Origin: Pseudomonadota bacterium
Lineage (GTDB): Bacteria; Pseudomonadota; Gammaproteobacteria; Steroidobacterales; SZUA-146
Length of the DNA stretch: 64,000 nucleotides
Reading direction: 5' to 3'
NCBI GenBank assembly: GCA_039028935.1
Contig: JBCCHD010000016.1
Span: forward strand, 1 to 64,000
Under the pieces are notes generated by a model. That model was not told where the DNA came from. It saw only the letters and a list, made by a program, of their open reading frames with translations, and made no database searches. Below, piece after piece: positions 33,161-33,217 of this stretch; the stretch's first letter is position 1; each line of letters opens with the position of its first letter. The position numbers and the translations under genes were made by a program.

Positions 33161-33217
33161 GTCGTCGTCGTCGTCGTCGTCGTCGTCGTCGTCGTCGTCG
33201 TCGTCGTCGTCGTCGTC
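33161..33217. repeat. (GTC)19 trinucleotide microsatellite
   Basis: Nineteen uninterrupted GTC units (57 bp), preceded by an ATC that looks like a mutated unit. The array ends 58 bp upstream of the start of a serine hydrolase gene. No supported gene covers it, although open frames can be drawn through it on both strands because repeats lack stops. Confidence 0.95.

Follow-up and report, generated by a model that had tools for sequence, protein, structure and literature searches.

A pure trinucleotide microsatellite, (GTC)19, occupies the intergenic region upstream of a serine hydrolase gene, where it extends over 57 bp from position 33161 to 33217 of the window (the complete 64-kb stretch of DNA that was analysed). 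The coordinates were re-derived from the sequence and confirmed the original prediction of an exact array 58 bp upstream of a start codon (ATG 33276); the array spans ATG-58 to ATG-117. On the plus strand, the longest unbroken period-3 tract is (TCG)19TC and measures 59 bp (33159–33217). These pure tandem 3-bp copies exceed what chance would produce, and the array represents a solitary, rare and true microsatellite, a striking outlier in its genome. We consider it probable that it grew by slippage in the gap between the divergent TetR and hydrolase genes, and that it is located in the hydrolase leader or on the promoter side without a large effect on expression. A slippage origin follows most simply from established knowledge about repeats. 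A pure tract of 19 units is expected to be unstable in length and, since long pure arrays decay by mutation, the purity of the array suggests recent growth. Frame switching would not arise, since the array is not part of the hydrolase reading frame and would change length in steps of 3 bp.

The array stood out clearly from the genomic background. A first-order Markov model predicted about 1e-25 (TCG)19 tracts per 4.1 Mb, and among the ~540 pure triplet runs of at least 9 bp found in 1.24 Mb of the host genome (all kinds of triplets, window included) the second longest reached merely 16 bp. Together, these values exclude a chance origin. When TCG alone was searched across the whole 4.1-Mb genome, just two other sites with at least five perfect units appeared, namely C15:5529 (15 bp) and C17:65199 (21 bp), the latter inside a gene, where it codes for poly-Arg. 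No second array of at least ten units was present anywhere in the assembly, and neither flank of the array recurred elsewhere in the genome. With single-copy flanks, a mobile or palindromic repeated element could be dismissed as the carrier of the array. The same observations bear on the assembly itself: in a draft genome of 91 contigs, a simple repeat could have been assembled with too many or too few copies or joined falsely, but there is no other array of at least ten units to misjoin, the flanks are unique, and 59 bp are well within a normal short read. We thus regard an artefact as very unlikely.

Among 396 genomes from the same order, two (the host and G219) contained arrays of at least ten perfect TCG units; among 398 genomes of the phylum, one did (the host alone). 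Both samples combined comprise 793 distinct genomes with two positives. The claim that such a 57-bp pure array is rare in bacteria was borne out. Pure trinucleotide arrays of E. coli K-12 have five units at most (PMC7015867), and a search of the literature on intergenic bacterial GTC/GAC arrays yielded nothing relevant. The array of G219, (TCG)15, encodes poly-Asp in a 411-aa ORF. Eleven viral contigs carried at least 19 units, in most cases with a long poly-Asp frame across the array, with the caveat that no frame of such a repeat contains a stop codon and that some of these arrays are situated at contig ends. The coding (GAC)n microsatellites of G219 and most viral contigs scanned therefore have the repeat unit in common with the host array, but lie inside acidic ORFs, whereas the host array lies between genes. 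It is thus the intergenic site that makes the host array unusual. That the host array encodes poly-Asp or poly-Ser, or descends from a tract that did, appears highly improbable. Such an origin would match the poly-Asp nature of most long TCG arrays elsewhere, and a 133-aa ORF on the minus strand as well as a 39-codon frame on the plus strand do cross the array; however, (TCG)n is by nature stop-free in all six frames, the minus-strand ORF runs antisense to the well-supported hydrolase gene and has no family match, and a TGA at 33243 parts the Ser frame from the hydrolase. The same in-frame TGA eliminated a longer hydrolase ORF that would take in the array. As long pure triplet arrays are very rare in bacteria, the locus offers a clean natural setting for triplet-repeat instability in a bacterial chromosome, and the array would be usable as a length marker.

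The gene to the right of the array (33276–34418, plus strand) encodes a 380-aa serine hydrolase of the beta-lactamase/D-Ala-D-Ala carboxypeptidase family (PF00144). The assignment is based on a profile match well above the gathering score (E = 4e-45, 154.8 bits against a cut-off of 27) and on the motifs SVTK (SxxK), YSD and HGG, which were read by eye together with a lipobox, LLPAC. The protein exceeded no NCBIfam equivalog cut-off; among solved structures it resembled D-Ala-D-Ala carboxypeptidases and alkaline D-peptidase. A Shine-Dalgarno motif, GGAGG (33267–33271, plus strand), is located 4 nt upstream of the ATG. Because of the lipobox, the hydrolase is probably a membrane-anchored lipoprotein. 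The protein had been predicted to be exported; an envelope serine hydrolase with a signal was indeed found, but LLPAC points to a lipoprotein rather than to a freely exported enzyme.

The nearest hydrolase homologues fetched belonged to Kordiimonas and other Alphaproteobacteria (45–49% identity), and the best homologues within the order showed 29–41% identity over partial lengths. In two genus-mates, only remote hydrolase relatives were detected (best E 9e-9). None of the 37 hydrolase-homologue loci fetched contained a comparable repeat. DNA comparison of the locus with the genus-mates revealed nothing beyond a match of 128 bp in the fatty-acid-hydroxylase gene, which was the sole match in G001 and lay there in a different gene neighbourhood. 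This match, being confined to that gene, was discarded as a counterpart locus, and none was detected in the genus-mates. Conservation of the array was therefore not seen.

To the left, the array is bordered by a gene pair consisting of the divergent TetR-family regulator gene (32353–32910, minus strand, ATG 32910; profile match) and then the fatty acid hydroxylase gene. A perfect palindrome, TGAGACAATAATGTCTCA, accompanied by a degenerate second copy (32910–32944), overlies the TetR promoter (TTGACA-18-CATTAT, minus strand). The palindrome is single-copy in the genome and separated from the array by more than 210 bp. Judging by its sequence, it is likely the TetR operator, and its combination with TTGACA-18-CATTAT looks like TetR autoregulation. 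TetR operators close to the array were considered as well, but none was found, the palindrome being at the TetR promoter. As a separate observation, transcription from this promoter (32910–32946) would begin close to ATG 32910, which raises the possibility of a leaderless mRNA under a palindromic operator.

Only weak promoter-like pairs were found near the array. The best one, TTGAAC-16-TAAACT (33126–33153, plus strand; TTGAAC at 33126, TAAACT at 33148), lies upstream and attained a score of 8.98, which is within the shuffle range (median 6.57, 95th percentile 9.83); a stricter consensus scan missed it. If real, this pair suggests that transcription starts at about the first array unit and that the array forms the first half of the leader. 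Right of the array there was no convincing promoter: the best pair, TCGTCG-17-TGTGAT, which takes the last array units as its -35 element, scored 3.6, below the shuffle median of 6.57. Since other sigma factors may be in use in this organism, the missing clear promoter constitutes weak evidence. The array as a spacer between the -35 and -10 elements of a sigma-70-type promoter could be rejected on geometry alone (57 bp compared with 15–19 bp). The original prediction had proposed that slippage could shift promoter spacing in 3-bp steps. With a tract far exceeding 15–19 bp, the best pair on the left and none convincing on the right, this specific mechanism is unlikely, although the array proved real and rare and does adjoin the 5' end of an envelope hydrolase gene. 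Whether a promoter lies to the left or to the right, elements adjoining the array stay unchanged, so that added units move far-side sites only. Repeat number could thus only shift distant upstream elements against a hypothetical promoter.

Several known systems invite comparison. In Mycoplasma gallisepticum, GAA arrays about 40 nt upstream of the start site control the expression of vlhA (pMGA), which has been linked to 12 GAA repeats (PMC6258824). The host locus shares with vlhA a pure, non-coding trinucleotide array upstream of a lipoprotein gene, in which slippage variation is expected. However, vlhA forms a large family of paralogous genes that share conserved flanks and an array near position -40 relative to the start site, whereas here a single array with flanks unrepeated in the genome precedes one gene, and the unit is GC-rich and hairpin-forming. 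In Neisseria meningitidis, tetranucleotide repeats change the spacing between NadR operators at nadA (PMC2791445); there, too, a simple repeat precedes a gene for a surface or envelope protein, but it lies between mapped operators, while the host array has no flanking operator pair. The T-tract rheostat of sabA in Helicobacter pylori (PMC4081817) resembles the host array as an intergenic SSR near a promoter (only a candidate promoter at the host locus). It differs as a mononucleotide tract that adjoins a mapped -35 element and was compared across many strains, whereas the host locus is represented by one genome's sequence. These three precedents, together with the presence of an envelope protein gene downstream, would fit a length-variable tuner: if a promoter lay at the end of the array or beyond it, slippage would alter both its distance and its helical phase relative to a site further upstream. 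We consider this reading unlikely, as the right side lacks a credible promoter (3.6 versus 6.57, see above), the sole clear operator-like palindrome sits at the distant TetR promoter, and the genome contains one such array, unlike multi-locus systems. It is quite unlikely that the array is a GTC-repeat length switch in a proteobacterium outside the known phase-variable pathogens, one in which (GTC)n slippage in the leader or around the promoter determines how much lipoprotein hydrolase is made, and which would parallel the GAA arrays of vlhA with a hairpin-forming unit. If length did affect expression, GC-rich triplets that form hairpins would be added to the known cases of SSR tuning.

Both single strands of the array were predicted to fold (GTC -11, GAC -16 kcal/mol). 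GTC and GAC repeats have been shown experimentally to form slipped hairpins with shifting registers (PMC11505666), and CGU repeats in RNA form hairpins or duplexes (PMC9144543). DNA and RNA folding furthermore returned an imperfect stem-loop at 33130–33168 (plus strand), in which the first array units are predicted to form the outer right arm and to pair with ACGACGG at 33130 around an inner stem, CGCCA/TGGCG. The folding signal was modest (DNA z -1.84 for a 98-nt stretch), and the modelled stem-loop may be fortuitous; the ACGACGG pairing is a possible seed of array growth. The natural leader folded no better than its shuffles (z -0.96). When leaders with 0–30 units were folded, accessibility of the Shine-Dalgarno motif and start codon remained near-constant from 10 to 30 units, and the predicted folding energy rose by ~3 kcal/mol per two units added. 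Flat accessibility and a leader no better than shuffles make tuning through leader structure less likely. These results also weigh on the idea of a 5' leader element, according to which a (GUC)n hairpin at the 5' end of the mRNA, or close to it, would protect the message or change its translation to a degree set by hairpin length. The candidate transcription start at the first array unit, the folding of CGU-type repeats in RNA and the length-dependent folding energy speak for it; against it stand the z value of the whole leader, a Shine-Dalgarno accessibility insensitive to unit number above 10, and a promoter candidate that is itself within shuffle range. We thus assess such an element as improbable.

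Our preferred reading remains a slippage-grown, nearly neutral microsatellite. Slippage during replication would have expanded the array in the space that separates the divergent TetR gene from the hydrolase gene, with both strands folding back through G-C pairs interrupted by T-T or A-A mismatches. Such slippage in a gap free of constraint accounts for every observation made at the locus. Its first units could also pair with the upstream ACGACG, and such hairpins would favour slippage and expansion. Most likely, the array would be transcribed in the hydrolase leader or be placed beside the hydrolase promoter, presumably without a large effect on hydrolase expression. We infer near-neutrality because neither conserved nor structural signs of regulation were observed; as an expression modulator the array would be weak at most, and a regulatory reading is possible but unsupported. 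Two considerations count against near-neutrality. By analogy, ATG-58 to ATG-117 would be the region where known regulatory repeats sit, and intergenic space makes up a minor part of bacterial genomes.

Other repeats were noted in the host genome. The longest homopolymer found in the 1.24 Mb, G10 (L100:15629-15638, host C17:35629-35638), is positioned where a methyltransferase-like gene shifts frame between two ORFs (15455-15757 and 15709-16155), the second of which matches Methyltransf_25. G10 is a better candidate for a contingency locus than (GTC)19, unless it reflects a sequencing error in the homopolymer. A hexanucleotide array at L102:3150-3310 (host C19) lies in the gene of a 437-aa exported protein, where it encodes a long (Asp-Pro)n linker preceding a C-terminal membrane-anchor-like tail. 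Finally, in the gene of a 724-aa protein, ~4.4 copies of a 9-bp repeat, GATGCAACC (L101:5071-5110, host C18), encode an (Asp-Ala-Thr)n linker.
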